From positions 35,897 through 99,896 of IMG/VR virus record IMGVR_UViG_3300035670_000085: 64,000 nt of DNA; one strand, 5' to 3'. The stretch is from a virus. A program made the translations under genes and the position numbers. The notes beneath the pieces are model-generated. The model was not told the DNA's origin and did not search any database. It saw only the letters and a program-made list of their open reading frames with translations. Positions 7,491 to 64,000 of this stretch are shown here, in pieces; within the stretch, counting starts at the first letter, position 1, and every line of letters starts with the position of its first letter.

Positions 7491-7491
7491 T

Positions 7492-8640: not shown

Positions 8641-8661
8641 TTTCTATTATATTGAAGAAAT

Positions 8662-8677
8662 TATACTAATAAATATA
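8662..8677 (+). promoter_or_regulatory. late-promoter-like motif
   Basis: Exact TATACTAATAAATATA, 13 bases before the ATG at 8690. Confidence 0.8.
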
Positions 8678-8689
8678 AAGGTAATAAAT

Positions 8690-8941: not shown

Positions 8942-8981
8942 ATCTACATAGACAATTCAAAAATAGAATAGGTATGTAATT

Positions 8982-9335: not shown

Positions 9336-9344
9336 GTGTAAAAA

Positions 9345-9641: not shown

Positions 9642-9656
9642 TAGAGGTAAAAAAAA

Positions 9657-9938: not shown

Positions 9939-10243
9939 AAAAATATAAATCATTATTTAAAGAATCTGAACAAAAAGCTAGTTACGATTTGGTAGCAAAT
10001 CTTTATAAAAAGGGTTCAAAATGGAGAACTATAGAGTGGGCAAATAATAATGATAAAGCAATAATATCTAATCTATCTCCAACTCTTTTAAAAAAAGGAG
10101 AGAATTGTAATATTGAGATGATGAAAGGTTCTTCTCAATTTAATCTCATAATTTCATGGAAAAACTCTAGCAATGTCATATTAGGATGCTCACTTTCTTT
10201 TGATAATGAAAAAGAAGCACAGAAAGAAGGGTGGAGTATATGA
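9935..10243 (+). CDS. MKRYK-tagged protein
   Basis: 102 residues; tag MKKYKSLFKES. The body has a helical start and then beta strands (CNIEMMKGSSQFNLIISWK). ATGA overlap at both ends. Not recognised. Confidence 0.75.
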   Translation: MKKYKSLFKESEQKASYDLVANLYKKGSKWRTIEWANNNDKAIISNLSPTLLKKGENCNIEMMKGSSQFNLIISWKNSSNVILGCSLSFDNEKEAQKEGWSI

Positions 10244-10467
10244 AGCGTTATACACCAATAAAACTACAAGAACAAGATGAAGAAGAATTACATCCACGAG
10301 TTCTTGAAATACTCGATTGTTTCAAAAACGAAGATTTTAATAATTTTTCAAAACGTCTTGATTTTGCATCAAAGCTACTTGAAATTATAGTATTATCAAA
10401 GGATGTTCGTATAAGAAGACTCATAAAGAAAATCTGTCAGGCAATAAAAGAAATAGAGGAGGAATAA
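10240..10467 (+). CDS. MKRYK-tagged helical protein
   Basis: 75 residues from ATG 10240 (GGTGGAG just upstream; a GTG at 10231 is less likely). Tag variant MKRYTPIKLQEQ: here the site is LQE, again matching [LIF]-x-E although the rest of the tag has drifted. The body is acidic at first, then basic helices (IRRLIKKICQAIKE). Confidence 0.7.
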   Translation: MKRYTPIKLQEQDEEELHPRVLEILDCFKNEDFNNFSKRLDFASKLLEIIVLSKDVRIRRLIKKICQAIKEIEEE

Positions 10468-10469
10468 AA

Positions 10470-10712
10470 ATGAAAAGATATAAGAGTATTTTAAAAGAAG
10501 CACAACCAATTCATATCGGAAAAGTTACTGTTTTTGTTCATTTGAAAATCAAAGAAGAAGAAGTAAGTAAGATTATAGATCTATTTGATAATATAGATAG
10601 CGATCAAAAAATTCAAAATTTTCAATATTTAGCTGGAAATATGAAACTTAAAAATTTAGCAAAATTTATTGATAATAAAAATATTTATCTTTTAAGAATT
10701 TCAGAGGAATAA
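10470..10712 (+). CDS. MKRYK-tagged protein
   Basis: 80 residues; tag MKRYKSILKEA. AGGAGGAAT ribosome site. Small alpha/beta body (VTVFVHLKIKEEEVSKIIDLF). Unrecognised. Confidence 0.75.
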   Translation: MKRYKSILKEAQPIHIGKVTVFVHLKIKEEEVSKIIDLFDNIDSDQKIQNFQYLAGNMKLKNLAKFIDNKNIYLLRISEE

Positions 10713-10714
10713 AA

Positions 10715-10963
10715 ATGAAAAGATATAAAAGCATTATTAAAGAAGCTGAATTTTCAAAAGGAAACATCCAGGCAATAATTGCCGCATTTAAAGAATGTGG
10801 ATTTAAAGTTGAAGGGAAAGAAGGCGAACAGAAAGAAGGAATTTTTTATGCTTCTTTTGAGAAAGGAAAAGAAATTCTCTCTATAGAGGATGCTATAGAA
10901 AACTTACAAGCATTAAAAAAAAACGATAGAAAAAACACAGGATATAGATTTGAAATAGTATAG
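10715..10963 (+). CDS. MKRYK-tagged protein
   Basis: 82 residues; tag MKRYKSIIKEA. Body of alpha/beta type (NIQAIIAAFKECGFKVEGK) ending in YRFEIV, similar in layout to its upstream neighbour, so the two may be distant paralogues. AGAGGAAT ribosome site. Confidence 0.75.
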   Translation: MKRYKSIIKEAEFSKGNIQAIIAAFKECGFKVEGKEGEQKEGIFYASFEKGKEILSIEDAIENLQALKKNDRKNTGYRFEIV

Positions 10964-11009
10964 CACGACAATCCAATCAGATTTGATATATCCGACTGAG
11001 AGAGTAATT

Positions 11010-11357
11010 ATGATAACTGAAAAAATTGCAATAGTTAACGCAGACCTCGTAGCGGGAAAAGCGGTTAAAACAATAGAAGATATATCTTTAACTAGATTAG
11101 ATGCACAAGCTTCATCGAAACAATATATTCCTATCAAAATAAAATGTACTAATAACACTAATGTTTCTGGCAATTTTATTGCATTTTCTGATATGGAATA
11201 TATACAATATATAGCAACACCAACAATTACTGATTTAGTTCCTTTAGCAATCGGTGAATCGTTTGAATATATTCCAACAAATCAAAAAATGACAACTATT
11301 GTGGTCGAGTCTGCTGTTTTTACTGGAACCTATGATATAGAAATTTGGAAAGAATAA
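11010..11357 (+). CDS. beta-sandwich protein, paralogue of the 8982 gene
   Basis: 115 residues from ATG 11010 (GAGAGAG upstream). All-beta pattern, untagged. Its first codons (MITEKIAIVN) recur at 11610, where a different short protein starts MIIEKIAIVS, showing a partial local duplication. Possible small virion surface protein; no proof. Confidence 0.7.
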   Translation: MITEKIAIVNADLVAGKAVKTIEDISLTRLDAQASSKQYIPIKIKCTNNTNVSGNFIAFSDMEYIQYIATPTITDLVPLAIGESFEYIPTNQKMTTIVVESAVFTGTYDIEIWKE

Positions 11358-11376
11358 ATTTTGAAGTTTAAATAAA

Positions 11377-11607
11377 ATGAAAAGGTACAAGAGTGTTATT
11401 AAGGAATCTGGGGATAATTATGAGAATTTTGGCATCTCCTTATCAAAAATGTATAGTAAATCGACAAATATGACGCAATTAGCCAATATGATTTCAAATA
11501 GTATTGGAGAAGAGATCGGAGATAGCGAGGATTTAATAAAGGTATCTAAAACTCTTATTGGTAATTTACAAGACCTTATAAATGATGCAAAATCTTCAAG
11601 AGAATAA
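11377..11607 (+). CDS. MKRYK-tagged protein
   Basis: 76 residues; tag MKRYKSVIKES. Helical body with Ser/Asn-rich start (GDNYENFGISLSKMY). It is flanked on both sides by genes starting with the same ~30-base MIxEKIAIV sequence, a sign of local rearrangement. Confidence 0.75.
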   Translation: MKRYKSVIKESGDNYENFGISLSKMYSKSTNMTQLANMISNSIGEEIGDSEDLIKVSKTLIGNLQDLINDAKSSRE

Positions 11608-11609
11608 AT

Positions 11610-11771
11610 ATGATAATTGAAAAAATTGCAATAGTTAGCTTTGAGAGCGACCCAAAAACGTATAGTGAAATGCGTAAGCTTGTGGACGAACATTTCTCCG
11701 AAAAGGGTGGAGGTTGGTCTAGCGGTTTTAGGAATTTTATAAAATACGTAAGGGGAGAGGAAGTATATTAA
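11610..11771 (+). CDS. 53-residue protein with duplicated start
   Basis: ATG 11610 to TAA 11771. The first ten codons copy those of the 11010 gene at DNA level; after MIIEKIAIVSFES the protein is different (SEMRKLVDEHFSEKGGGW), rich in charged residues and glycine. It looks like a chimera in which a foreign body acquired a resident start region. Confidence 0.55.
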   Translation: MIIEKIAIVSFESDPKTYSEMRKLVDEHFSEKGGGWSSGFRNFIKYVRGEEVY

Positions 11772-11804
11772 AAAAAGCGGAAACGACAACTATGAAAAAT
11801 AGGA

Positions 11805-11849
11805 AAGAGTGCGTATAAAAAAATTTTAAACAACGAGGAAGGGAAATAA
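11805..11849 (+). pseudogene. decayed tag relic
   Basis: The frame at 11805-11849 reads KSAYKKILNNEEGK then stop, recalling the tag of the next gene (MKRYKSILNEES); the DNA around TTTTAAAC is shared. No start codon. Just upstream (about 11776-11803) SGNDNYEK resembles SGDNYENF of the 11377 gene. Together these suggest the eroded remains of a tagged gene. Confidence 0.35.
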
Positions 11850-11850
11850 G

Positions 11851-12216
11851 ATGAAAAGATACAAATCAATTTTAAACGAAGAATCACAATTTTCTAAAAA
11901 TTTACATAAGTATTTAAGACATTATGATAATCTTGAAACTTATAGCGAGTTAATTAAATTAATAAAAACTATAAATTATAATAAAAAAATAGAAACAGAT
12001 GAAGCAAAACAAAATGTTTATAAAGCTGTAATTTTATTGCTTCTTGGATATACTGGTTCAGAAGTGAGTAATAAACGTGATTATCTTTCTAAAGAATGGG
12101 AGAAAGAGGAAGAAAGTAAGAACGAAACTCCAGATGAATTTATGAAAAGAATGAAAATGGTGCCTTATAAAGAAAATTTGTCATGCAATAAAAGAAATGG
12201 AGGAGGAATAAAATGA
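11851..12216 (+). CDS. MKRYK-tagged protein
   Basis: 121 residues; tag MKRYKSILNEES. Helical throughout, with a Lys/Glu-rich C-terminal half. Ends in ATGA overlap with the next gene, whose ribosome site GGAGGAAT lies in its last codons. Confidence 0.75.
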   Translation: MKRYKSILNEESQFSKNLHKYLRHYDNLETYSELIKLIKTINYNKKIETDEAKQNVYKAVILLLLGYTGSEVSNKRDYLSKEWEKEEESKNETPDEFMKRMKMVPYKENLSCNKRNGGGIK

Positions 12217-12524
12217 AACGATATAGAAGTATTTTTAAAGAAGAAAAAAATTTACCTAATATGGATATTGATTCTTTTGTTAAAGAATTAATGAAAAATA
12301 GAAATTTAAAAGATACTTTTAAATCGTATACTATTGATGAATCTTATGAAAATCCAGATGGAGATTTTAATTCTGTTATTTATTTAGAAGATTTTATAAC
12401 TGAAAGACCAAGTTATGATTTTGTGAATCATTTACGCAGGATTGTTAATAAAAATGAAGATATTATTGATAGTAATATTGGTCGGGACAAATATAGAGTT
12501 GTTTTAAATATAACCCATAAATAA
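12213..12524 (+). CDS. MKRYK-tagged protein
   Basis: 103 residues; tag MKRYRSIFKEE. Acidic helical body (NMDIDSFVKELMKNRNLKD) then short strands. No family recognised. Confidence 0.75.
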   Translation: MKRYRSIFKEEKNLPNMDIDSFVKELMKNRNLKDTFKSYTIDESYENPDGDFNSVIYLEDFITERPSYDFVNHLRRIVNKNEDIIDSNIGRDKYRVVLNITHK

Positions 12525-12539
12525 AAAGGTGGAAATAAA

Positions 12540-12743
12540 ATGAAACGATACAAATCGATACTTAAAGAAGGAATGAGATACAATACTAGCTATTTTGAAG
12601 CAGGAAAAGATTTAAGATCAGCAAAAAAAATAGATACTGTAATTGGTGTTTTAGAAGAAATGATTATGGAATTAAAAGCTTGGAAAAAAGAAGGAGCTAA
12701 AGAAGTTCAAGGAAATAAAAATGAATTTATTCCATTATGGTAA
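12540..12743 (+). CDS. MKRYK-tagged small protein
   Basis: 67 residues; tag MKRYKSILKEG. The body is two helices (TVIGVLEEMIMELKAWKKE). AAGGTGG ribosome site. It immediately precedes the protease/scaffold gene, so the tag array and the head morphogenesis genes share a transcription unit. Confidence 0.75.
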   Translation: MKRYKSILKEGMRYNTSYFEAGKDLRSAKKIDTVIGVLEEMIMELKAWKKEGAKEVQGNKNEFIPLW

Positions 12744-12761: not shown

Positions 12762-14828
12762 ATGGCTAAAATAAAATTAGTTGAAAAGATAGGAATTAAT
12801 GTTCCTATTGAAAATATAAAAGTTTTTGATAAAGTAAAGATAGTAGAAGCTGCCGGAAAGAATTACGAGGCTATAGCAGTAATTGAGAAAGTACCTTTTA
12901 CTAGATTTGGCAGTGTTAATGATAACAATAGATATTATCCACGTAAACTTTGGGAAAAAGTTATAAAAGAAGGAGTATGTGAAGGAAGCTCTCTTTATAC
13001 AAACCATGCAGAAAATGAAACAGATGTATCTAAAAAAGCAGGTATCTGGCATAATGCATTTATTGACGATAAGAATAAAGTATGCAGAGCAGATCTTTAT
13101 CTTATAGGACCAAACGGACAACTCTTTCTCGATGCTTTAAAAGCTGGTTCAAAAGGGGAGGGTATCAGTTCAGTTGGCTACGGTGAGTTTGAAGATAGAT
13201 ACGAAGAATTAAAAGAATTTGGTAATATAGGACATGATGTAAAAGTAGTACGATGGGACACGTATGATGGAGAGTCTTATGGCGACTGGGTACATCAGCC
13301 GTCTCAAAACGTATTTGCAACATTAGAAAATATTAAAGAAAATAATGAAAACTCTTCTAATTTAAATGAAAGTTATACTAATAATAGTAAAGCTACTAAT
13401 GATAAATTAGATGAAAATATAAAATTACAAGAGAATAAAAAAGAGGTTTATATGGATAAGTCGATATTGAAGAATATGGTATTGAATGAAATAAAACGTT
13501 CAAAAAATAATCCTAATCTTCTTGAAGCAATTCAAGGATTGAAAGAGATTGACACTGCTGGTGATTCTGAACTTAATAATAGAGTAAATGATGCAATTGA
13601 AACTCTCACAACTAAACTTGAAGAAAGTAAAAGTAATGCAGAAAAACAGCTCAATGAAAGCACAACTAAATTGAATGAAATGACTGCTAAATATAATAAA
13701 CTTGTTGAGAATTATAAAAAAGCTACTTCTAAAGTTGTAGAATTGACAGAATCAACAAAACTTATGGAATCCGATATTAAATGCTTGGTAGAAGATTCTA
13801 ATCTCCGTGATAATGATATTAAATGTCTTACAGAAGACCGTAAAGTTATGATATCCGATCTTAAAAAAATGATTGAAGATCGTAAAGCAATGAGAAAAGA
13901 TATTAATGTTCTTACTACTAAATTGAAAGAAGCTGAAGAAGTTATTGGTCAACAAGAAGATGAACTTGAAAAACGTGGATTTGAATTTGAAGAAGATGAT
14001 GAAGAAGTAGAATTTGATGCGGAAGGAAATCCTATAGTAAAAGAGCCTGTAACAGAAGAAGAAATGCCTGCACCTGAAGTGCTTCCAGAAACCCCGGCAG
14101 AAATAAAAGAAGAAGGTGACGAACAAGAACTTCCTATGCAAATCGATCCTCTTCCAACTGAACCTGCAATGGTTGAAGAAGAAGATGAAATGATGAATCT
14201 TGATTTTGAAGATGAAGAAGAAGTTGAAGAACTTGAAGAAGAAGATGCTTTTGATGCATTTGCTCCTGCAGGTGAAGAAATGGATGAGCCTATGGTAGAA
14301 GAAGATGAGATGGAAATGCCTGTTGAGGAAATGCCAGTTGAAGAAGCTCCGGCAGAAGAAGTGAAAGAAGAAGAAATGCCTGCACCTGAAACTCTTGACA
14401 CTCCTCCTGCACCGGCTCCTGCTCCTATAGCCATAGAAGAACCTAAACCAGAAGAAACTAAAATGGTTGAGGAAGACGAAGAAGAAAAAGAAGATGAAGA
14501 AGAAGTTGAAGAACCAGAAGAAGAAAAAGAAGAAATGAAAGAATCTGTAATTAAGTTTTCATGGGAACCAAAAAAAGAAGTTAAAAAAGCTCCTGTAAAA
14601 ACTAAAATCGTAGAAAATAATATTAAGGCTGATCTTAAAAAATTCTATGAAAGTCAGATTGCAAAGAATCCTTCTGTAAAAGCTATTGAAAAACAAATCA
14701 TGTCTGCTAAATCTTTGTTAGAGGCCTTTGATATGGTTGATGTATTCAAGAGCAGAAAGTCAGATAAACTTGTGAAAGTTACTGAAAGTAAAAAATCTGA
14801 TGGTAATGTGATAAAATTTAAATTCTAA
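12762..14828 (+). CDS. prohead protease-scaffold protein
   Basis: 688 residues. Residues ~30-215 match the T4 gp21-type prohead protease (assemblin-like serine fold): NNRYYPRKLWEKVI at ~55-68, a candidate catalytic His at ~82 in YTNHAENE, and the conserved serine pocket GISSVGYGEF at ~134-143. Residues ~230-390 are coiled coil; ~395-600 are extremely Glu-rich with Pro/Ala/Met repeats; the last ~60 residues are basic and helical, typical of a head scaffold that binds the capsid protein. T4 makes protease and core from separate genes; here they form one frame with an internal start at 13452. Such proteases cut after [LI]-x-E, the motif present in the MKRYK tags around this gene. Confidence 0.9.
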   Translation: MAKIKLVEKIGINVPIENIKVFDKVKIVEAAGKNYEAIAVIEKVPFTRFGSVNDNNRYYPRKLWEKVIKEGVCEGSSLYTNHAENETDVSKKAGIWHNAFIDDKNKVCRADLYLIGPNGQLFLDALKAGSKGEGISSVGYGEFEDRYEELKEFGNIGHDVKVVRWDTYDGESYGDWVHQPSQNVFATLENIKENNENSSNLNESYTNNSKATNDKLDENIKLQENKKEVYMDKSILKNMVLNEIKRSKNNPNLLEAIQGLKEIDTAGDSELNNRVNDAIETLTTKLEESKSNAEKQLNESTTKLNEMTAKYNKLVENYKKATSKVVELTESTKLMESDIKCLVEDSNLRDNDIKCLTEDRKVMISDLKKMIEDRKAMRKDINVLTTKLKEAEEVIGQQEDELEKRGFEFEEDDEEVEFDAEGNPIVKEPVTEEEMPAPEVLPETPAEIKEEGDEQELPMQIDPLPTEPAMVEEEDEMMNLDFEDEEEVEELEEEDAFDAFAPAGEEMDEPMVEEDEMEMPVEEMPVEEAPAEEVKEEEMPAPETLDTPPAPAPAPIAIEEPKPEETKMVEEDEEEKEDEEEVEEPEEEKEEMKESVIKFSWEPKKEVKKAPVKTKIVENNIKADLKKFYESQIAKNPSVKAIEKQIMSAKSLLEAFDMVDVFKSRKSDKLVKVTESKKSDGNVIKFKF
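13452..14828 (+). CDS. internal-start scaffold protein (nested)
   Basis: Within the protease-scaffold gene, AAGAGG at 13441-13446 lies five bases before an in-frame ATG (13452), exactly at the boundary between the protease part and the coiled coil. Translation from here gives a 458-residue scaffold beginning MDKSILKNMVLNE, in which LNE could also be a protease site. The layout is like lambda C/Nu3, where the scaffold is translated from inside the protease gene. Separate use of this start is inferred. Confidence 0.6.
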   Translation: MDKSILKNMVLNEIKRSKNNPNLLEAIQGLKEIDTAGDSELNNRVNDAIETLTTKLEESKSNAEKQLNESTTKLNEMTAKYNKLVENYKKATSKVVELTESTKLMESDIKCLVEDSNLRDNDIKCLTEDRKVMISDLKKMIEDRKAMRKDINVLTTKLKEAEEVIGQQEDELEKRGFEFEEDDEEVEFDAEGNPIVKEPVTEEEMPAPEVLPETPAEIKEEGDEQELPMQIDPLPTEPAMVEEEDEMMNLDFEDEEEVEELEEEDAFDAFAPAGEEMDEPMVEEDEMEMPVEEMPVEEAPAEEVKEEEMPAPETLDTPPAPAPAPIAIEEPKPEETKMVEEDEEEKEDEEEVEEPEEEKEEMKESVIKFSWEPKKEVKKAPVKTKIVENNIKADLKKFYESQIAKNPSVKAIEKQIMSAKSLLEAFDMVDVFKSRKSDKLVKVTESKKSDGNVIKFKF

Positions 14829-14889: not shown

Positions 14890-15105
14890 ATGAAACGATA
14901 TAAATCATTATTCAAAGAAGAATTTCCTCTTAATTACAAACAAGGAATGTTTCTTAAAAACATTATAGAGGAATATCTTATAGATATTGGAAAAGAAGAA
15001 AAAAGAAAAGAAGCGTTTACTATAATTTTACATGCAATATCTAACCATAAACTTGATTTTGATAAAGATAAAATTTTATTGTTTTTACAGAAAAAATATA
15101 ATTAA
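14890..15105 (+). CDS. MKRYK-tagged helical protein
   Basis: 71 residues; tag MKRYKSLFKEE. All-helical body (FLKNIIEEYLIDIGKEEKRK). It sits alone between the scaffold terminator and the capsid promoter, with no clear promoter of its own, so it relies on read-through. Unrecognised. Confidence 0.75.
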   Translation: MKRYKSLFKEEFPLNYKQGMFLKNIIEEYLIDIGKEEKRKEAFTIILHAISNHKLDFDKDKILLFLQKKYN

Positions 15106-15310: not shown

Positions 15311-16819
15311 ATGAGTAATCAAATGAAACTCCAAGAGGAGTTAAAAGAGCGTAACGAACGCTTGAATAAAATAACTGAAAACTGGATGAGGACTGAATTT
15401 ACAAAAGGCGATGTAATTCCTAAAACTGGAAAAACTTATCGTTCCATGCTTCAAGAAGTTGCAGCAAGGAATCCTCATCATGCAAGATGTATCGCTGCTG
15501 CAGCTCAGCAAGAATACAACCACATGAAAAAAAGTAAAATGAATGAAACTACGATTTCTACTGCTCTTCAAACGCACCCGGAAAACGTAATAAAAGTAAT
15601 CATGCTTGGTATGGCTAATTCAATTCGTCCTATGGCATTCGTAGAATGGCCAATGACAACTATTGATGATGCTATGTATTGGGTAGATCGTACATATGAA
15701 CAATCAATTCGTGGCGCAACTGCTAACGATCTGATTTATTACAGCTTGAATGGAAGGTATGCTGGGGAATCTAAAGAAGAAACAGATGCAACTGTAACTT
15801 CATGTCTCCCGAACGTACCGAATAGCGCAACTCAAAACTTTACGTTGACCCTTACTCTCAATCCTATTATCATGAAAAAAACGTATATTACGTTGAATGA
15901 TACTCTGATTGGTTATGACAGTCTTGGAACTGGTGTTATTACCCGTCCAGGGAATTCAACTGTATTGACAACCAATACAACTAATAATAATATCGATTAT
16001 ACGAATGGTATTGTAAAACTTGGTTTTACTTCTGCTCCCGCAACTGGTGCTGTTATAAAAATAGCATATGAGTGGGATTCTGAAAATACAACTCTGTTTG
16101 CTGCAAATCAAGGAACAGTAAGTGTTAATCTTCGGAAAGATCGTTTTAATGCTCGTCCAATGCCGTTAGGATACAAATTCACGGATATGGCTGGCCTTAC
16201 TCTTATGTCAACTGGTCTTGGTGACATTCATGAAATGCTTATTTCTGCAGTAGCAGATGAGCATGCAAAAGCTCGGGATGCTCGTGCAATTCAGCTCGCA
16301 TACCAACTCGCAAAAGTTAATGGTACTTATACATTTGATTGCGATTTCCGTGTAGCTGGTGAAGTTCAAGCGAAATCACACGTCCAGAAAGTTGTAGCAA
16401 AAATAGATTCTATCGGTGGTTTGATTCAGGACGATATTAAAAAAGGTCAGATCAACGTAGCTATCGCTGGTTCACAAGCACTTTCTATTCTCCGGATGCA
16501 TGACAACTGGAAAGATGATAATTCAATGCCTCGTCAAGGATGCTATAAAGCAGGTTCTGTAAACGGTATTGATGTATTCTATGCACCTGCAACTACCGGA
16601 ATTATTGGAACAGAAGACATTATTCTTTCCTATAAAAACCCGCAAGAAAATGCAGACGTTGCTCTTGCTTTCGGTAACTTTACTGAAATCAGTGCAGAAT
16701 TACGTTATCCAAATTTTACAACTGAAGGATCGTTGGCAACTGTTGAAGACGTGAAAATAATTGAGCCTAAGTTTCTCCGTCATCTTCAGCTTTCAAATAC
16801 TTCGGCTGTTCTTTCCTAG
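15311..16819 (+). CDS. major capsid protein (HK97 fold)
   Basis: 502 residues, a T4 gp23-like length. The N-terminal ~100 residues are helical and charged, with LQE and ITE sites (residues ~7 and ~22) where the prohead protease might trim. The core has LGMANSIRPMAFVEWPM (~100-115) and RDARAIQLAYQLAKVNG, followed by a spine-type C-terminal domain with SQALSILRMHDNW and NGIDVFYAP, typical of HK97-fold capsid proteins. Codon use is richer in GC than the neighbours, as expected for a highly expressed gene. AGAGGAAAT ribosome site; downstream terminator at 16850. Confidence 0.9.
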   Translation: MSNQMKLQEELKERNERLNKITENWMRTEFTKGDVIPKTGKTYRSMLQEVAARNPHHARCIAAAAQQEYNHMKKSKMNETTISTALQTHPENVIKVIMLGMANSIRPMAFVEWPMTTIDDAMYWVDRTYEQSIRGATANDLIYYSLNGRYAGESKEETDATVTSCLPNVPNSATQNFTLTLTLNPIIMKKTYITLNDTLIGYDSLGTGVITRPGNSTVLTTNTTNNNIDYTNGIVKLGFTSAPATGAVIKIAYEWDSENTTLFAANQGTVSVNLRKDRFNARPMPLGYKFTDMAGLTLMSTGLGDIHEMLISAVADEHAKARDARAIQLAYQLAKVNGTYTFDCDFRVAGEVQAKSHVQKVVAKIDSIGGLIQDDIKKGQINVAIAGSQALSILRMHDNWKDDNSMPRQGCYKAGSVNGIDVFYAPATTGIIGTEDIILSYKNPQENADVALAFGNFTEISAELRYPNFTTEGSLATVEDVKIIEPKFLRHLQLSNTSAVLS

Positions 16820-26228: not shown

Positions 26229-26527
26229 ATTTTATATAATTCATTTAATCTTTTTAAATATGAAGTTGCTCCTGTATCTCCACTTGTATACCATTCTAAT
26301 TCTTTAGCTCTAATAGCTAATTGTCTCAAATCAACAATAAATCTCTTCACTTCATCAAGAATAATTTCTCGTTCCTCATCTGTAGCATCTGATAACAAAT
26401 CATATTTATGATCTGTATCATTCCCATACTTTTCACATATTACTCCATCATTAATAAAATCTCTTTCAATTTCATCTGCAAGATATTCTAAATATCTATA
26501 TTGATATTGATAGTGTCCACCACTCAT
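26225..26527 (-). CDS. MSGGHYQYQY-family protein
   Basis: 100 residues beginning MSGGHYQYQYRYLEYLADEI, a start found in a widespread family of small phage proteins of unknown function. A close paralogue lies at 28408-28887, with DATDEEREIILDEVK(R/S) shared. Helical; Glu-rich. Confidence 0.8.
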   Translation of the reverse strand: MSGGHYQYQYRYLEYLADEIERDFINDGVICEKYGNDTDHKYDLLSDATDEEREIILDEVKRFIVDLRQLAIRAKELEWYTSGDTGATSYLKRLNELYKI

Positions 26528-26529
26528 TG

Positions 26530-27198
26530 TTATATTTCCTCCAATATTACATCCCTCAATTTTAGTTGATTCTTTATTTGAACCATAAAAAATATACCCG
26601 GATCTTTCTTAATAGTTCGCATATCACTTTTTTCTTTCCATAAATCAGTTTTTTCGAACTTTCTATACTCATAATGTCCAATAACATATTTAATAGTCGG
26701 ATATTTTGAAATTAAGTATTCACATAGTTGTACATTTGCAATCATTTGTTCTTGTGTCAAATCATTATATCCAATATTCTCTATTCCAATAGAGCACCAA
26801 TCTAGTCCTATACAATGTCTTCCAATTAACAAATCTGGCATAAGTCTATAAACAGTTCCATCTCGATCAATAATAAATTGAGTACCAACATTTAATCTTC
26901 CATATCTTCGTATATAATTCCAAGATTTATAGTAACGACCTCTTAAAGAATCATCAAAAAAATATTCACGTATATTATCAACAGAATTACTATGATAACG
27001 AGATTCTGTACTGTGAATAACAATAATTTTAGGATCTATTTGAACTTGTGCTTTTCCATATCTAATTCTTGTGTATTCTTTGATGTTTTTAATACGTTGT
27101 TCTGTTACTGGAATAGATTTATCCTCAATAATCAAAGTATCATTTGTTATTGAAGATAAAAATAAGATAGAACTTAAAATAATTAAATACGGTTTCAT
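26530..27198 (-). CDS. N-acetylmuramoyl-L-alanine amidase (endolysin)
   Basis: 222 residues. An Amidase_2/PGRP-type fold that cuts the amide between MurNAc and the stem peptide. Zinc ligands visible: His ~62 (IVIHSTES), His ~175 (VIGHYEYRKF) and Asp ~199 (KKDPG), with GTQFIIDRDGTVYRLM (~105-120), GRHCIG (~126-131) and SIGIENIG (~136-143) typical of the family. The N-terminus (MKPYLIILSSILFLSSI) is a signal or signal-anchor, so export is by the host Sec route rather than by a holin. It sits among early-type minus-strand genes, not the late ones. Confidence 0.85.
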   Translation of the reverse strand: MKPYLIILSSILFLSSITNDTLIIEDKSIPVTEQRIKNIKEYTRIRYGKAQVQIDPKIIVIHSTESRYHSNSVDNIREYFFDDSLRGRYYKSWNYIRRYGRLNVGTQFIIDRDGTVYRLMPDLLIGRHCIGLDWCSIGIENIGYNDLTQEQMIANVQLCEYLISKYPTIKYVIGHYEYRKFEKTDLWKEKSDMRTIKKDPGIFFMVQIKNQLKLRDVILEEI

Positions 27199-37500: not shown

Positions 37501-37911
37501 GTGGAAGCACTCCTTACTAACCCCCTATATTTACAATATTTGAGTGAGTATCAAAAGAAATATAAAAATTTTCTTTGTGATAGTACTGCGCAAATAGGAG
37601 ATATTGTATATATACATCCTACCGAAAATAATAAAGTAATTGTTAATATTGATAATTGTAATGATAATCCTTCAGTTGGAATTATTGTTAAAAAAATTTC
37701 TATAACTGAAGCAAAAGTACAGCTTTGTGGAGAATGTTCTTTATTGTTCTCTGGACTTCAAAAATCTAAAAATGTTTTTCTTGGACTGGATGGAAAGTTA
37801 ACAAATGCCGTTCCAAATACTGGTTTTATTCAAAAAATTGGAATATCTCTAGAAGATCAAAAGGTCTTCTTAAATATTGATTACATGAGGATAAAAAGGA
37901 ATCCTTTTTAA
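37501..37911 (+). CDS. appendage/decoration protein, cassette copy 1 gene A
   Basis: 136 residues from GTG 37501 (an in-frame stop directly precedes it). Its C-terminal ~90 residues match the gene at 43758: SVGIIVKKISITEAKV...LFSGLQKSKNVFL..DGKLTNAVP..G.IQKIGI. Beta-rich, of the kind found in head-decoration and fibre-base domains. The N-termini of the two copies differ. Confidence 0.7.
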   Translation: MEALLTNPLYLQYLSEYQKKYKNFLCDSTAQIGDIVYIHPTENNKVIVNIDNCNDNPSVGIIVKKISITEAKVQLCGECSLLFSGLQKSKNVFLGLDGKLTNAVPNTGFIQKIGISLEDQKVFLNIDYMRIKRNPF

Positions 37912-37918
37912 AAAAAAT

Positions 37919-37934
37919 TATACTAATAATTGTA
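37919..37934 (+). promoter_or_regulatory. late-promoter-like motif variant
   Basis: TATACTAATAATTGTA, nine bases before the ATG at 37943; the second half deviates from the consensus. Confidence 0.55.
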
Positions 37935-37942
37935 GGTAGTTT

Positions 37943-38179
37943 ATGGAAAACAAAATTAAAAACAAAAATAAAACTAAGGATTTGTGGTTTTATGCTTTTT
38001 TGAGAATACGTGGCTATGAATTGTCAGATTATGTAAAGCATGAAGATACAAATAAATCTGAATTTATTTTTAATATTACTAATGATGAATGGAAACAATT
38101 AAAGCTTGATTTTAATAAATCCGATTTATCAAAAGGAAAGTGGTTTATCGAAGAAGCAAAAGATTTAATTTTTGGATAG
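37943..38179 (+). CDS. DUF5659-like small protein
   Basis: 78 residues. TKDLWFYAFLRIRGYELSDY...SEFIFNITNDEWKQLKLDF follows the pattern of the phage DUF5659 family (tKDlyxAaFLxxxGxxL...xFxF). Unknown role. It is present only in copy 1 of the cassette. Confidence 0.65.
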   Translation: MENKIKNKNKTKDLWFYAFLRIRGYELSDYVKHEDTNKSEFIFNITNDEWKQLKLDFNKSDLSKGKWFIEEAKDLIFG

Positions 38180-38192
38180 GGTGGTCAAAGTT

Positions 38193-38627
38193 ATGGACGA
38201 TATTCAAAAACCTCAAAAACGTAAAAAGCAAAAACTGTTTTCTGAACCAACTACAATAAACAATAATGATTTAACTATAGAAGAGAATTCTTCTAAAATT
38301 TTATTAGAAAAAGAGGCATTAAAACTTGAAAATTATATGTTAACTATTGCAAACAAAAAAATGCAATCAGATAATATTTTAATGCAAATAACTAATAAAA
38401 AATTAATTCTTGAAAATGCAGAATTAAAAGAACAAATAGAAAAATTTAAGCTTGATAAAATTAAAAATGATATTCAGTTTTTAGAAGCTCAAAAAGAAAA
38501 CAACCAAAAACAAGTTAGTTCTGTAATGAAAGATTATGATAGTTACAAAAAAATGTTAGAAGATAAATACACGTTAGCGGGAAAATGGGGATTTAATCCC
38601 GAAACATTCGAAATTATGGTTGATTGA
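38193..38627 (+). CDS. coiled-coil protein, cassette copy 1 gene B
   Basis: 144 residues from ATG 38193. A basic start, long coiled coil (~35-120), and the end KWGFNPETFEIMVD, matching RWGFDPRSGEIKI of the 44190 gene. A short coiled coil before fibres suggests a trimerising or chaperone function. Confidence 0.7.
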   Translation: MDDIQKPQKRKKQKLFSEPTTINNNDLTIEENSSKILLEKEALKLENYMLTIANKKMQSDNILMQITNKKLILENAELKEQIEKFKLDKIKNDIQFLEAQKENNQKQVSSVMKDYDSYKKMLEDKYTLAGKWGFNPETFEIMVD

Positions 38628-38638
38628 GGTAAATTTTT

Positions 38639-40153
38639 ATGAGTATTAAAAAATTCTTATTCGTTGATTCGGATAGTTTTTATTCTGAATCGTCTGGAGC
38701 ATATGAAACTTCTGATTATATCAGCGGTACTGCTGGTGCGGGAGATGCAAATAAGCCTATTAAAACAAATCCTTCTGGTTTGTTAGATGCTACCTTTTTG
38801 CCATCTGTTGTAGTGAGGACAGATCAAGATTCAACTCTTGCTTCTGGAGTAACTATTGCTGTTAATCCGGCAACTACTTTTACAGCTAATGATCTTATTT
38901 CTAAATCTTATGCAGATGCTATTGCTGCTGGTTTTGGTCCTAAACGTTCTGTAAGAATAGCTACTGATGCAAACATAGACACATTTGTTTATGATAATGG
39001 GACTGATGGTGTTGGTGCAACATTAACAGCTCCTACAAATAATAGTTCTTATAACACTATGCAGTCAGTTTTATTGTCTGTTGGTGATAGGGTTTTAGTT
39101 AAAGACCAAACAGATACGTTTGAAAATGGTATTTACGCTGTAAGTGCATTGGGTAATGATTCTGACACATCTTTTACTTTGACAAGAGCAATTGACTTTG
39201 ATAATAATCCAGATGGAGAAATTCGTCCTGGTGATTATACTTTCGTCATTGAAGGTACAAAAGCCGATCTCGGTTTTGTTCAGATAGATTTTACAACTAG
39301 TGATGTTGTTGGAACAGATCCTATCACTTTTACTGAATTTATGTCTCCGACTGTTTATGTTGCTGGCGACGGTATTGATATTGCCGGAACAACTATATCA
39401 GTAGATGTAACTGATTTTATTGATACCACGTATGGATTAACAGAAAGTTCAAATGATATTCGAGTTAATCTTGATTCTGCTGGTGGTCTTGGTTTTGATT
39501 CTATAAATTATGGTATTGAAGTAGTACCGGATGTAACAACTGGGGCAACTGTTGCTCCTGTGACTGTTGGAGCAAATGGAGTTGGTGTAACTGTAGATAA
39601 TAGTACTATTGGCCATACTTCTGGAACTTTGGGAGTTAAAGCTGATGGTATAAACGACACTCATATCAATTGGGGTACTGGTGCTAATCAAGTATCTGCA
39701 GTTGATGTTCCAATCGCTGATGCCGGCGGGTATACTACTCAAACTGAAGTTGAAGGAGCATTACAAGAAATTTATGGAATGTTGGCTGAAAGTGGTGCTG
39801 AAACTTTTACTGTTGGTGCTGGTGGAGTTACCAAAGGTGATTTAGTTTATGTAAGTGCAAATGATACTGTAAATAAACTTGATATAGATGATTCAGAATA
39901 TGGTATTGGTTTAGCAATGGCAACTATTGGAGCAGGTAGTTCAGTGAAAGTTGTTCAAGATGATACTATTCTTGAAGGAGTTCTTACTGGAGCTATAGCA
40001 GGAGCTAAATATTACTGGTCATGGGATGGTTCAACTGGTGGTATAACTGCAACAGCACCCACTGCATCCGGTAAATCTGTATGGCAAATTGGTATAGCTA
40101 AAAATGCAACAGATTTGTATGTAGAAATAAGATTCATAACAAAACGGTCTTAA
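38639..40153 (+). CDS. tail fibre/appendage protein, cassette copy 1 gene C
   Basis: 504 residues, beta-rich and poor in Cys. The N-terminal ~230 residues are ~85% identical to the 44611 gene (for example TFTANDLISK(S/A)YAD(A/S)IAAGFGPKRSV), with DNA that differs mainly at synonymous sites. The middle is diverged, and the end (VWQIGIAKNATDLYVEIRF) is again alike. Typical trimeric fibre composition. A terminator follows at 40164. Confidence 0.8.
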   Translation: MSIKKFLFVDSDSFYSESSGAYETSDYISGTAGAGDANKPIKTNPSGLLDATFLPSVVVRTDQDSTLASGVTIAVNPATTFTANDLISKSYADAIAAGFGPKRSVRIATDANIDTFVYDNGTDGVGATLTAPTNNSSYNTMQSVLLSVGDRVLVKDQTDTFENGIYAVSALGNDSDTSFTLTRAIDFDNNPDGEIRPGDYTFVIEGTKADLGFVQIDFTTSDVVGTDPITFTEFMSPTVYVAGDGIDIAGTTISVDVTDFIDTTYGLTESSNDIRVNLDSAGGLGFDSINYGIEVVPDVTTGATVAPVTVGANGVGVTVDNSTIGHTSGTLGVKADGINDTHINWGTGANQVSAVDVPIADAGGYTTQTEVEGALQEIYGMLAESGAETFTVGAGGVTKGDLVYVSANDTVNKLDIDDSEYGIGLAMATIGAGSSVKVVQDDTILEGVLTGAIAGAKYYWSWDGSTGGITATAPTASGKSVWQIGIAKNATDLYVEIRFITKRS

Positions 40154-41486: not shown

Positions 41487-41900
41487 ATGAAGAGATACAA
41501 AAGACTTTTTGAACAAGAAGATATGGTTGTTAAACCAGAAGAAGAAATTAACGAACCAGAAATGGATTTAAAACAACAAACACAAGATGCAGTTATTGAA
41601 AATCCAATGGTTGAAGAAGATGATGAAGAAATTAATTTCGAAGATGAGAATGAAGAAGAATTTAATTTTGAAGAAGAAGACGAAACCCTTCCAGAAATAG
41701 AAGATGATGAAGAGGAATTCAATTTTGAAGAAGAAGACGATGATGAAATTCTTCCTGAATTAGAAGATGAAGAAGAATTTAATCTTGAAGAAGAAGATTC
41801 TGAATTTCCAATCATTAATTTTGAAGAGGAAGATGATGATGAAATTCTTCCTGAATTAGAAGATGAAGATGAAATTCAAGAACCAGAAATAGTACAATAA
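41487..41900 (+). CDS. highly acidic MKRYK-tagged repeat protein
   Basis: 137 residues from ATG 41487 (TGAGG upstream). Tag MKRYKRLFEQE, then about half Asp/Glu arranged in imperfect repeats of EEEFNFEEED and DDEILPELEDE (four or so between residues 45 and 130). If packaged it might act as DNA mimic or internal head counter-ion, like T4 internal proteins or Ocr in effect; it also resembles the acidic part of the scaffold. Role is inference. Confidence 0.75.
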   Translation: MKRYKRLFEQEDMVVKPEEEINEPEMDLKQQTQDAVIENPMVEEDDEEINFEDENEEEFNFEEEDETLPEIEDDEEEFNFEEEDDDEILPELEDEEEFNLEEEDSEFPIINFEEEDDDEILPELEDEDEIQEPEIVQ

Positions 41901-43757: not shown

Positions 43758-44180
43758 ATGAGTACTGTAATACTAACTCGTTCTGTAAATGCTGGAAGAA
43801 CGATCCATGTTAATGATGAAGAATCATTAAGAATTGTTAGAGAATTTGATTGTGATAGTAGTACGTTAGTAGGTCAACCTGTTATTTTATCTTCAACTGA
43901 AATAAATAAAGTAATTGTACCAAATAATAATTTTGATGTTATGCCTATTTTTGGCATAGTTGAATCAAAAATAACAGCAACAACCTGTAAAGTTATCACT
44001 CATGGATATAGTGACGTTACGTTTACTGGACTAGTTAAAAATAAAAATATTTTTTTATCTTCGGATGGGGCATTAACTACAGATGTTCCATTAAGTGGTT
44101 ATATGCAGATATTAGGTATTGCATATGAAGATAATAAAATGTATGTTAATATTGGTTTACAGATTACGTTAATGGGATAA
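43758..44180 (+). CDS. appendage/decoration protein, cassette copy 2 gene A
   Basis: 140 residues. Homologous over the C-terminal two-thirds to the 37501 gene (MPIFGIVESKITATTCKV...FTGLVKNKNIFLSSDGALTTDVPLSGYMQILGIAYEDNKMYVNI). Beta-rich. The order of the following three genes matches copy 1. Confidence 0.75.
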   Translation: MSTVILTRSVNAGRTIHVNDEESLRIVREFDCDSSTLVGQPVILSSTEINKVIVPNNNFDVMPIFGIVESKITATTCKVITHGYSDVTFTGLVKNKNIFLSSDGALTTDVPLSGYMQILGIAYEDNKMYVNIGLQITLMG

Positions 44181-44189
44181 GGTATTTAT

Positions 44190-44600
44190 ATGGGCAGAAA
44201 AAAAGTAATAAAAGTTGAAGCAGAAATGGTCAAAATTGATTCTCTCAAACTCTTAAAAGAAGAGTTATTAGAGTTGAAATTGGATAAAGCGGAAACAAGA
44301 GAAAAAGAATTAGAAATGGAATTGAAAAAGAAAGACTATTCAATTAAAGCACTTGAATTAAAAATTATGGATTTGCAAAATAAATTGCAAAGAATAGAAG
44401 AAGAAAAAAAGATTCAAGAAATGAAAGCGGTATTAGTCTCAATTGATAATGAAGTTGCTAATTTAAAAAAACATGTAGAAGATAAATATAAAGAACATAT
44501 TCCATTAATGAAAAAAATAGCTGAAAATCATAATATAGGAGAAGATGTTAGGTGGGGTTTTGATCCCCGTAGTGGTGAAATTAAAATAATAGATAAATAA
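44190..44600 (+). CDS. coiled-coil protein, cassette copy 2 gene B
   Basis: 136 residues, basic start, continuous coiled coil (~25-110), end RWGFDPRSGEIKI as in the 38193 gene. GGTAT upstream of the ATG. Confidence 0.7.
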   Translation: MGRKKVIKVEAEMVKIDSLKLLKEELLELKLDKAETREKELEMELKKKDYSIKALELKIMDLQNKLQRIEEEKKIQEMKAVLVSIDNEVANLKKHVEDKYKEHIPLMKKIAENHNIGEDVRWGFDPRSGEIKIIDK

Positions 44601-44610
44601 GAGGTATTAT

Positions 44611-46233
44611 ATGGCTACAAGTCAAAAATATATAATTGTAAATACAACTACTGGCCGGTATGAAGTTGAAAATACTTATGCGGCTGCTGATTTATTTGCA
44701 AAAGATGAATACATAAGTGGTACATCGGGAGCAGGAGATGCCGATAAACCGATTAAAACCAACGTGTCTGGATTATTGGATTCTACTTTTCTTCCTTCAG
44801 TAGTAGTAAGAACAGACCAAGATTCAACATTAGCTTCAGGTGTAACTATTGCCGTTGATGCAGCAACAACATTTACTGCTAATGATTTGATTTCTAAAGC
44901 ATATGCTGATTCTATAGCAGCAGGATTTGGTCCTAAAAGATCTGTAACATTAGCCACCGATGCTAATATTGATACATTCGTATACGATAATGGTACTTCT
45001 GGTGTTGGTGCTACATTAACAGCTCCAACAAACAATAGTTCCTATAATACAATGCAGACAGTATTATTAGTTGTTGGAGATCGTGTTTTGGTTAAAGATC
45101 AAACAGATACATTTGAAAATGGTATCTATGCAGTTAGCGCACTTGGTAATGATTCGGATACATCATTTACGTTAACACGTTCTGATGATTTTGATAATAA
45201 TCCCGATGGAGAAATTAGACCAGGCGATTATACATTTGCAGTATCTGGAACAAATGCAAATAGAGGGTATTATCAAGTTGATTTTACAACTGGAGATGCA
45301 GTTGGTACTGATCCTATTACTTTCTCAGAATTTATGGCACCGGCAGTATATACCGCTGGAGATGGTATCGATATAGCTGCTAATTCTATATCTGTAGATG
45401 TTACTGATATAATTGATACAAATTATGGTTTGACTGAAAATGCTAATGATATTAGAATTAATCTTGAATCCGACGGTGGTTTACAATTCGATGCGTCTAA
45501 TAAAGGAATAGAAATTAAATCAGATTCTATAACTGCTAATACAATTGCTATTACAACTACTGCAAATGGAGCTGGAGTAAAATATGATAACACTAAAGGT
45601 TTAGGGGAAACATCTGAAACATTAGAAGTTAAATTAAATCCTGCTGGAGCATTAGAATTTGATGTTACTTCTGGAACTATTGGAGTAAATGTTGATAATA
45701 GTTCAATTGAAATTAATGGTTCAAATGAAATTCAAGTAAAAGCAGACGGTATTAAAGATACTATGATAGATTGGGGAATAGGAGCAAGTCAAGTATCTGC
45801 TGCTGATATGCCAATAGCTGATACTGGTGACGTATTTACAGCAACTGATGTTGAAGCTGCTTTGCTTGAACTCTATAATGGTATTGGTTCTACAACTTAT
45901 ACAACCGACGGTACTGGAGTAACTGCAGGAGATGTTGTATATATTTCAGCAAATAATATTGTATCAAAATGGTCAGATATCACATCAAATCAGTACATAG
46001 TTGGTATTGCTGCTGAAACAAAAGGTGCTGGTGTAGCAGTTAGAGTATTGTGGTCTGGAGAAATTATTACTGGAATTCTTACTGGAGCAACTGCTGGAAA
46101 CGAATACTACTGGAGTGGTTCAGCTTGGGTAACAACATTTCCTTCAACAGCCGGGGGATATGTTTATCAAGTTGGTGTTGCTAAAAATGCTACTGATGCG
46201 GTAGTTCAAATCGAGTTTATAGTTCAAAACTAA
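44611..46233 (+). CDS. tail fibre/appendage protein, cassette copy 2 gene C
   Basis: 540 residues. N-terminal ~235 residues closely match copy 1 gene C, including DRVLVKDQTDTFENGIYAV; about 35 residues longer in the middle. C-terminal ~120 residues share GAGVAVRVLW/GAGSSVKVVQ and VYQVGVAKNATDAVVQI. Terminator at 46248. Confidence 0.8.
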   Translation: MATSQKYIIVNTTTGRYEVENTYAAADLFAKDEYISGTSGAGDADKPIKTNVSGLLDSTFLPSVVVRTDQDSTLASGVTIAVDAATTFTANDLISKAYADSIAAGFGPKRSVTLATDANIDTFVYDNGTSGVGATLTAPTNNSSYNTMQTVLLVVGDRVLVKDQTDTFENGIYAVSALGNDSDTSFTLTRSDDFDNNPDGEIRPGDYTFAVSGTNANRGYYQVDFTTGDAVGTDPITFSEFMAPAVYTAGDGIDIAANSISVDVTDIIDTNYGLTENANDIRINLESDGGLQFDASNKGIEIKSDSITANTIAITTTANGAGVKYDNTKGLGETSETLEVKLNPAGALEFDVTSGTIGVNVDNSSIEINGSNEIQVKADGIKDTMIDWGIGASQVSAADMPIADTGDVFTATDVEAALLELYNGIGSTTYTTDGTGVTAGDVVYISANNIVSKWSDITSNQYIVGIAAETKGAGVAVRVLWSGEIITGILTGATAGNEYYWSGSAWVTTFPSTAGGYVYQVGVAKNATDAVVQIEFIVQN

Positions 46234-56192: not shown

Positions 56193-56414
56193 ATGAAAAA
56201 GTATAGAAGTATATTTCAAGAAGCTGAAGAAGATAAAACACAAGATTCTATTGATGAATTAATTACTATGAAACGCCTTGATACTGAAGAAGATAAAGGA
56301 AAATTTCTTGAACTTATAAAAGGAATCGTTTTTTCAAATAATTCTAAAGGAAATGAATTTTTGAATAAAATAAATGATTTCACTTCTACTTTAAAAAAAG
56401 AAGATATTGAGTAA
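56193..56414 (+). CDS. MKRYK-tagged protein
   Basis: 73 residues; tag MKKYRSIFQEA. Acidic helical body (DKTQDSIDELITMKRLDTEED). AGAGGAAAA ribosome site. A lone tagged gene in the tail region, between neck gene and homing-type gene. Confidence 0.75.
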   Translation: MKKYRSIFQEAEEDKTQDSIDELITMKRLDTEEDKGKFLELIKGIVFSNNSKGNEFLNKINDFTSTLKKEDIE

Positions 56415-62693: not shown

Positions 62694-62728
62694 AACCACT
62701 TTGATTGAAAAATCATTGTGGTTTTTCT
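62694..62728 (+). terminator. rho-independent terminator
   Basis: AACCAC...GTGGTT (62694-62699 with 62718-62723) with further pairing of TGAT/ATCA inside, then TTTCTATTATTTTT. Confidence 0.7.
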
Positions 62729-62746
62729 ATTATTTTTCAAAATTTT

Positions 62747-62762
62747 TATACTAATAAATATA
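62747..62762 (+). promoter_or_regulatory. late-promoter-like motif
   Basis: Exact TATACTAATAAATATA, 12 bases before the tagged SprT-like gene. Confidence 0.8.
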
Positions 62763-62774: not shown

Positions 62775-63125
62775 ATGAAAAGATATAAATCCTTATTTGA
62801 ACAAAATAGCGATGATTATGATCTCAAAACAAAATATAAGGAGTTCAATGATTTATATTTTAACGGAGAACTTTCACCAACCACTAAATTAGAATGGGCA
62901 GATAGAATGGGTGATGCAACTATGGCTATGACACATCCAACACTTCCATTCACAATTAAAATGGGTAATAAAAAAGACTTAGATGAAATAGTTCTTGACT
63001 CGACATTGATACACGAAATGATTCATGTTCTTCAATTTCAAATGGGAAGACAAGGTTTTCACGATGATTGGTTCAATGCTGAAAAAGAACGTATAGAAAA
63101 ATTAAATCCAAAATTAGATATATGA
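62775..63125 (+). CDS. MKRYK-tagged SprT-like metalloprotease
   Basis: 116 residues from ATG 62775; tag MKRYKSLFEQ. YKEFNDLYFNGELSPTTKLEW (~25-45), STLIHEMIHVLQFQMGRQGFHDDW (~76-99) with HExxH at 80-84 and a third His at ~96 are the SprT-family layout (compare Spartan, which digests proteins cross-linked to DNA). Shorter than usual, lacking the C-terminal zinc ribbon. If packaged it could clear DNA-bound proteins from the incoming genome. Role inferred. Confidence 0.85.
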   Translation: MKRYKSLFEQNSDDYDLKTKYKEFNDLYFNGELSPTTKLEWADRMGDATMAMTHPTLPFTIKMGNKKDLDEIVLDSTLIHEMIHVLQFQMGRQGFHDDWFNAEKERIEKLNPKLDI

Positions 63126-63607
63126 AAAGATATAAACCGTTATTCAAAGAAGAAGTTATAGGCGATCTAAAAAGTTTAGAATTTACCAAAACTTATCATG
63201 GTACAACTTCTCAAAAACTACCGGGTGGATTAAAGTTATCCAAAAGTGAGAATAAAAATATATTTGGCGGCAATGCTTCAATAAGTGTAACTGATAATAA
63301 ATTTTTAGCGCAATCTTTTACAAAAGGGGAGTTGGGCCTCGATCCAGAGGGTAAGATTTTTATTATTACAAAACCTATAAAAGTACTAGATTTACGAGAT
63401 AAAAAGACGCATAGTTTTTGGAAAAATTCAAAATACAATCCTCAAATAATTCTAAATGCTGGGTACGATGGTGTAGCTTTTGAAAATCTTGAAGAGATAA
63501 GAATTGAATCTTTTTATAAAGAAATTCCAATAAATAAAATAAAAAATGCTTTAGAGATTCAATTATTTAAGAATGTAGAAGAAAGATATATAAAAGAACT
63601 AAAATGA
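63122..63607 (+). CDS. MKRYK-tagged ADP-ribosyltransferase-like protein
   Basis: 161 residues; tag MKRYKPLFKEE. TYHGTTSQKLPGGLKLS (~22-38), GGNASISVTDNKFLAQSF (~47-64), GKIFIITKPIKVLDLRD and GYDGVAFENLEEIRIE follow the order of mono-ADP-ribosyltransferase folds (YHGT first strand, S-T region, late Glu). T4 packages the ADP-ribosyltransferase Alt with a similar targeting peptide, so the pairing of tag and fold is striking. Activity is not provable from sequence alone. Confidence 0.7.
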   Translation: MKRYKPLFKEEVIGDLKSLEFTKTYHGTTSQKLPGGLKLSKSENKNIFGGNASISVTDNKFLAQSFTKGELGLDPEGKIFIITKPIKVLDLRDKKTHSFWKNSKYNPQIILNAGYDGVAFENLEEIRIESFYKEIPINKIKNALEIQLFKNVEERYIKELK

Positions 63608-64000
63608 AAAGATATAAACCGTTATTCAGAGAAAATAATATCTCAGATTTCTATGAGTATGAAGAAGTTCGGAGAACTATTGACGAACTTCAATTACCAT
63701 ATAATATAGAAGAAATAATTGATAAATTTAATAAAACAAAAACTCAAAAATTAGATAAAGCAATTTGGAAAATTTTGAATAATACTGATTATGATGTCAA
63801 TACAGAACAGGATGTTAGAGCGCGATTAGAGCAGTATGAGCGTGACCTAAACAACTATAATAAAGTATTGAATGAATTTAAGAAGGGTATATTTTATCCT
63901 TCCTTAATAGTACATACAGAAAAAGATGGTTATTATTTAGTAGCAGGAAATACTAGATTAATGGTATCTAAAGTTAATAATTTAATACCGTTTGTAAAAA
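63604..64000 (+). CDS. MKRYK-tagged ParB-like protein (3' end outside window)
   Basis: 132 residues visible; tag MKRYKPLFREN. Helical N-terminal ~85 residues, then YPSLIVHTEKDGYYLVAGNTRLMVSKV (~100-126), the ParB/sulfiredoxin-type core with GNTRL. Such domains occur as nucleases/CTPases and in injected polyvalent phage proteins. Starts by ATGA overlap with the previous tagged gene. Incomplete at the window edge. Confidence 0.8.
   Translation, partial: MKRYKPLFRENNISDFYEYEEVRRTIDELQLPYNIEEIIDKFNKTKTQKLDKAIWKILNNTDYDVNTEQDVRARLEQYERDLNNYNKVLNEFKKGIFYPSLIVHTEKDGYYLVAGNTRLMVSKVNNLIPFVK

Follow-up and report, generated by a model that had tools for sequence, protein, structure and literature searches.

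A T4 capsid-targeting-like N-terminal tag on 28 ORFs of an uncultured phage, including a co-oriented trio with peptidase-, ADP-ribosyltransferase- and ParB-like features

The internal proteins IPII and IPIII of phage T4 both begin with MKTYQEFIAE (read from NC_000866), and in IPIII these first ten residues are enough for packaging into the T4 head (PMC9026906). Mutations in this capsid-targeting sequence (CTS) assigned residues 4 and 7 chiefly to targeting, and residues 8 and 10 to processing, and the T4 protease gp21 cleaves after L/I-x-E (PMC9026906). A further described system is that of the polyvalent proteins of phages and conjugative elements, whose hub domains include a zincin peptidase, an ADP-ribosyltransferase (ART) and a DdrB-like ParB domain (Iyer et al. 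2017, PMC5512222). Polyvalent proteins are predicted to be packaged and injected, with T4 Alt cited as the model of a packaged ART, and T4 alt adjoins tail and baseplate genes (PMC5512222), as is also seen in the T4 gene order. Here, we describe an uncultured phage in which a ten-residue N-terminal tag, very probably a CTS of a head-packaged, cleaved and injected effector set, is carried by 28 ORFs. Among the open-licence papers searched, no description of such a tagged array was found.

The window, that is, the whole stretch of 64,000 nucleotides that was analysed, comprises bases 35,897 to 99,896 of the IMG/VR record IMGVR_UViG_3300035670_000085, which is 99,896 b long with 29% G+C. An earlier note on this DNA had pointed out three consecutive tagged genes at the right end of the window, and all three indeed share the N-terminus MKRYK[SP]LFxE (Table 1). 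The tag itself is thus confirmed, but it is not special to these three genes, as 28 ORFs of the record, all on the plus strand, start with M[KR][KR]Y, 26 of them in the window and 2 further left. The consensus of the 28 is MKRYK[SP][LI]F[KE]E, or more loosely MKRYK[SP][LIV]FxE, and an exact MKRYK start was found in 19 ORFs against 0.0025 expected. A search with an over-specific DNA pattern of the tag had no match.

Table 1. Positions of the trio, its upstream signals, the head genes and other tagged genes (window coordinates unless marked as record coordinates).
Feature	Position	Strand	Remarks
Array of 20 tagged ORFs	3669-12743	+	several ATGA junctions; few untagged ORFs interspersed
Candidate gp21-like prohead protease with scaffold-like region	12762-14828	+	688 aa
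Tagged gene	14890-15105	+	MKRYKSLFKE; between protease/scaffold and capsid genes
Major capsid protein, Gp23 type	15311-16819	+	PF07068, E 1.3e-5, 25.3 bits (cut-off 24.4)
Tagged gene	41487-41900	+	almost purely acidic body; own late-promoter motif at 41452
Tagged 73-aa protein	56193-56414	+	MKKYRSIFQE; within tail module
Hairpin with U-rich tail, intrinsic-terminator-like	62694-62738	+	closes the preceding unit and separates the trio from the previous gene
Late-promoter-like motif TATACTAATAAATA	62747-62760	+	14 b upstream of gene 1 ATG
Gene 1	62775-63125	+	116 aa; tag MKRYKSLFEQ
Gene 2	63122-63607	+	161 aa; tag MKRYKPLFKE
Gene 3	63604-64000	+	132 or more aa; tag MKRYKPLFRE; without stop
Tagged protein	record 26258-26848 (L003:8758-9348)	+	MKRYKPLFEAE-DYRGDHRAP...; homologues in Straboviridae Vibrio phages

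The layout of the trio also agrees with the earlier description of one unit behind an exact late promoter, joined by ATGA overlaps, since ATGA is present at both junctions (gene 1/gene 2 and gene 2/gene 3) and the motif stands at its short distance from the first ATG. The core of the motif, ACTAATAAATA, occurs 13 times on the plus strand and never on the minus strand of the window, compared with 0.27 copies expected under a first-order Markov model (60 trials, maximum 3). Further copies lie directly upstream of the tagged gene at 41487, of 46297 and of the tail sheath gene at 57561, and one copy lies 171 b ahead of the capsid gene. The T4 late promoter is TATAAATA; the phage motif is similar to it, yet is a distinct motif of its own. 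The hairpin ahead of the promoter has a folding energy of -13 kcal/mol (z -3.59; 0 of 200 shuffles equally stable), and was not listed by a simple, stricter terminator scan. Gene 3 lacks a stop codon because the window ends where the record ends, and comparison of the two record ends revealed no overlap that would allow gene 3 to continue at the opposite end. No relatives of gene 1, 2 or 3 were found by tblastn in INPHARED, and no close relatives of gene 1, gene 2 or the capsid gene in IMG/VR.

Gene 1 almost certainly encodes a SprT-like zinc metallopeptidase, as had been proposed. It matched PF10263 with an E of 2.5e-11 and 43.8 bits, well above the curated cut-off of 25.6, and has the HExxH motif as HEMIH at residues 80-84, with a candidate third His at 96; the best PDB sequence relative was Spartan 6mdx (E 0.024). 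ArdC, a plasmid anti-restriction protein, contains a Spartan-like metalloprotease domain (PMC7213743). Gene 1 is likewise SprT-like with HExxH, but differs from the SprT/Spartan and ArdC-type proteins in its short total length, in its tag and in that no partner DNA-binding domain was seen in it.

Gene 2 had been called ADP-ribosyltransferase-like, and it is the profile comparison that bears this out. No match was obtained in Pfam, PHROG or NCBIfam, nor with PF18760 by HMMER, and a PDB sequence search returned matches at chance level only. An ART-PolyVal alignment was then built from the ART domains of Roseobacter-phage virion RNA polymerases and of a crAss-like phage, the RPP1 ART domain being PF18760 ART-PolyVal (E 1.3e-10). 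Against this alignment, hhalign scored gene 2 at 30.6 (E 2e-4), compared with a maximum of 20.1 among 100 shuffles and with 18.5 for the next best of 56 window ORFs. The two are collinear through YHGT, SVT...LAQSF, GYDG and the following strand, and the GYDG half alone gave an E of 4e-4 in pairwise BLASTP. Within the H-Y-D site (strands 1, 2 and 5), H26 of YHGT and a candidate D116 of GYDG were aligned; the Tyr is not clearly kept. Gene 2 is quite probably an ART. That it is some other small alpha/beta protein, with YHGT and GYDG present by chance, is unlikely: the missing family matches, the unclear Tyr and a single-sequence AlphaFold model with a pLDDT of 30.6, which is uninformative, would suit such a protein, but the hhalign score exceeds all 100 shuffles and all other window ORFs, and the collinear motifs and the BLASTP match of the GYDG half speak against chance.

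The putative ART of gene 2 was further compared with T4 Alt, for which a parallel solution had been suggested. The parallel holds as an analogy and not as homology, because gene 2 resembles the ART-PolyVal type, and no similarity to Alt could be detected; its hhalign score against the Alt catalytic domain was 13.8, within the shuffle range. With Alt, gene 2 shares an N-terminal peptide, a gene position in the tail/baseplate region and an expected injection; it is a candidate ART that resembles ART-PolyVal with an H-Y-D site, whereas Alt has R-S-E. The Alt N-terminus, MELITELFDE, has LFxE at positions 7-10 as the phage tag does, a likeness that may be accidental because the published Alt propeptide is about 7 residues long.

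Gene 3 consists of the tag, a helical region and the beginning of a ParB/Srx-like domain (AGNTRLMVSK, with GNTRL near the record end). It holds the sole match to PF02195 in the record, which covers profile positions 19-68 of a gene that is cut and stays below the cut-off (E 0.011). The proposed ParB likeness thus stands as a weak match and not as a match to the whole domain, since the gene is cut by the record end, and gene 3 is reasonably likely to be ParB-like.

To turn from the trio to the tag, its conservation ends sharply after residue 10, with column entropies over the 28 tags of 0-2.2 bits at residues 1-10, 2.7 bits at residue 11 and 3.3-3.8 bits beyond. No pair of tagged bodies was related at E<=0.01 in blastp, and codons within the tag vary synonymously, Arg3 being encoded by AGA, AGG, CGT, CGA and CGG. 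Because the bodies are unrelated and the tag codons synonymous, the peptide, not copied DNA, appears to be conserved, and this pattern is the one expected of a peptide that is functional and transferable.

Position by position, the tag agrees with the mutational map of the T4 CTS. Tyr is found at position 4 in 28 of 28 tags, L/I/V at position 7 in 27 of 28 and F/L/I at position 8 in 27 of 28, and Glu stands at position 10 in 18 and at position 9 in 8 of the 28. A [LIVF]xE ending at residues 9-11 was present in 25 of 27 tagged vs. 6 of 154 untagged ORFs, and the strict T4 cleavage motif [LI]xE in 13 of the 27, both counts being approximate because the set of 27 includes one lipoprotein-like false positive and omits two tagged ORFs. 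Phe occupies P3 in most tags, where the T4 motif has L/I, and the specificity of the protease would have to be shifted accordingly. A short N-terminal peptide on unrelated bodies, with its determinants at residues 4, 7, 8 and 10, is what characterizes the T4 CTS, and the tag is, with high probability, a peptide of the same kind.

The head genes of the phage are consistent with this assignment. In the 688-aa protein next to the capsid gene, the candidate protease part makes up the N-terminal ~190 aa and is followed by a Glu-rich, scaffold-like stretch. This N-terminus is the sole place in the record that matched PF03420 Peptidase_S77 (E 2.2e-4, below cut-off; E 0.025 by hmmscan). Local alignment of the protein with T4 gp21 scored 69 vs. 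a shuffle maximum of 54 and spans VN.N.R.YP and the active Ser, the Ser of VSSRGLG standing opposite ISSVGYG. A candidate gp21-family protease, with its S77 match below cut-off, and a Gp23-type capsid protein are thus encoded in one genome. Most tagged ORFs are located between a portal candidate, named by position and appearance with no family match, and the protease/scaffold fusion that adjoins the capsid gene. This succession, from the portal candidate through the tagged array and the protease/scaffold gene to the capsid gene, parallels T4 20-67-68-21-22-23, with the array in the position of the T4 prohead-core genes.

Compared with T4 IPI-IPIII, both sets have the pattern M-K-x-Y-x-x-hydrophobic-hydrophobic-x-E on unrelated bodies and a prohead-core gene position, and the Gp23-type capsid and candidate S77-type protease are found in the phage genome as well. 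The phage differs in its consensus MKRYK[SP]LFxE, where P3 is mostly Phe, in having about 28 tagged genes vs. a handful in T4, in the clustering of most of its cargo in one array and in the fusion of its protease to a scaffold-like region.

Several irregular ORFs were observed in and around the array. At 6990-7490, KRYKPLFES is internal (residues 46-54), with ATA replacing ATG and a ribosome-binding-like GAGGAGAGG just upstream, which could be either a gene fusion via loss of the start codon or an AUA start; both Rhodothermus phage RM378 and a 735-kb phage have a small basic protein that matches the N-terminal part of this ORF. A 33-codon ORF at 5983-6084 (MRRYKPLFEYMTPSERKG...) is barely more than a tag and sits in an ATGA chain amid tagged genes, and the ORF at 5385-5708 starts with LIMYRSVFEES, a shortened tag variant, immediately behind a late-promoter motif at 5352. 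Two untagged array ORFs (8982-9335 and 10983-11357) are alike by eye and are possibly duplicated beta-rich proteins. Outside the array, a block of three genes (small protein, coiled coil and large head-decoration/fibre-like protein) is apparently duplicated at 37501-40153 and 43758-46233, and a tagged protein at record positions 8044-8619 (L002), starting with MKRYQSQFMES, gave a weak nucleotidyltransferase match (PHROG_1614, E 3e-4).

Homologues of one tagged protein, that at record position 26258, allowed the tag to be followed on the same cargo in other phages. In the Straboviridae Vibrio phage VH7D, gp301 has the same body with the N-terminus MKTYTEFLSE-YHMQHRAP..., and gp301 was the only match to the T4-type CTS DNA pattern in the 247-kb VH7D genome; the identical pattern matched ipII, ipIII and one 54-aa ORF in T4. 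At least 80 homologues from uncultured phages were found in IMG/VR, either as stand-alone tagged proteins or within large polyvalent proteins. Among these 80, the stand-alone ones bear other short N-termini, and many of the remainder occur as domains within large proteins that lack a tag and reach 4141 residues in length. At 6 of 9 examined loci with stand-alone cargo, a neighbour of different body shares the local tag, sharing being defined as at least four of nine post-Met residues identical to it. Sharing was clear at L028 and L029 (MNFKxWL), L030 (MKLYxILFE) and L051 (MINFKEYLME) and weaker at L036 and L048, while no neighbour with the cargo's tag was found at L027, L034 and L038. Since homologous cargo carries different, neighbour-shared tags, different lineages appear to label the same cargo with their own tag, with some exceptions. 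A second replacement test, on the tagged array body at 4912 (DUF5661), gave no phage relative.

The body of the 26258 protein is a polyvalent-associated domain of unknown function. It had been considered as a second ART on the basis of the motifs YRA, GDWV and EWGY, and this idea was withdrawn because comparison with the ART-PolyVal and Alt profiles was at noise level and a homologue model (pLDDT 88.6, 37 sequences) gave no PDB fold match at E<=0.001. In BFVD, the model matched only uncharacterised or polyvalent-type viral proteins, and the PHROG label "ParB C-terminal domain" for this protein was not relied on. Separately, L030:858-1685, with the local tag MKLYxILFE, contains VFHGT...GLFVTLDWEMAKRFGG and scored 22.7 in hhalign vs. 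a shuffle maximum of 19.3; it is probably a further tagged ART-like protein.

An alternative is that the tagged proteins are mainly structural or scaffolding components of the prohead core, like T4 gp67 and gp68, which are degraded and lost instead of being injected as effectors. The array stands at the core-gene position adjoining the scaffold, the almost purely acidic tagged body at 41487 is reminiscent of gp67-type core proteins, and in a relative, the tagged protein at L007:7307 is likewise acidic and resembles a coiled coil. We consider this improbable, because genes 1-3 carry enzyme-like domains with conserved motifs, the tagged bodies are mutually unrelated, and the homologue of one of them sits in large polyvalent proteins, a class predicted to be injected (PMC5512222). 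Least tenable is a shared N-terminus without targeting role, as a translation-initiation or expression element or a relic of duplication: a short common start could help translation, and several tagged genes have ATGA overlaps and no clear ribosome-binding site, but synonymous codons, unrelated bodies, the abrupt loss of conservation after residue 10, the agreement of the hydrophobic and Glu positions with the T4 CTS and the replacement of the tag on the same cargo by tag peptides of other lineages make it very improbable.

The reading as a T4-style set of tagged effectors thus fits the anatomy of the tag, the CTS mutational map, the presence of a candidate protease and a Gp23-like capsid protein, the gene order and the tag replacement. 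For this reading, we infer a course of docking, packaging, cleavage and injection, as well as the enzymatic activities and their targets. The tagged proteins would be made late in infection from the late promoters, and the tag would dock them into the scaffolding core of the prohead. Cleavage by the gp21-like protease behind the Glu at residue 9 or 10 would then free the bodies, which would stay alongside the DNA inside the head and pass into the next host cell. The trio, which is likely to be injected into the host, would be one such unit, made late, whose products are a SprT-like metallopeptidase, an ADP-ribosyltransferase similar to ART-PolyVal and a ParB-like protein, most likely aimed, at the start of infection, at host proteins and at the incoming DNA or its defences.

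The trio corresponds to three main domain types of the polyvalent proteins. It differs from them in that the domains are separate small proteins, three short ORFs each with its own tag, rather than several effector domains in one polypeptide, and one may regard it as a polyvalent protein that has been divided into parts with a tag each. In the nearest relative (L004/L006), with a sheath identity of 43-47%, and in L005, the sheath-tube block is followed by a predicted tape measure, with no tagged genes at that site; the trio therefore appears to have been inserted into the tail module. The L004/L006 relative has tagged genes of its own at L007:6218-7780, of which one contains HEVVH; close to them is a neck-type gene similar to the gene 3' of the tagged 26258 protein. 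Different tagged genes thus occupy comparable sites, so the cargo differs while the tag stays.

The kind of system is known, as in T4 Alt and the internal proteins, while its scale and cargo are new. Ten residues send a protein into the T4 head, yet few cargo proteins are known from T4 itself, and some 28 tagged cargo genes, with a protease, a likely ART and a ParB-like protein among them, would be a rich natural case of bulk protein delivery. Finding a lineage's tag would be a simple rule to list candidate injected proteins of uncultured phages. A broader proposal, which could go either way, is that many T4-related uncultured phages combine a lineage-specific CTS, serving as an address label, with a large set of injected effectors that have one domain each and are exchangeable (about 28 in this genome), and that the same domains move between single proteins with a tag and polyvalent megaproteins without one. 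If so, the injected set of such a phage could be taken straight from its sequence by means of the tag. The finding would link the literature on T4 internal proteins with that on polyvalent injected proteins, and the tagged set offers candidate anti-defence and host-takeover proteins.
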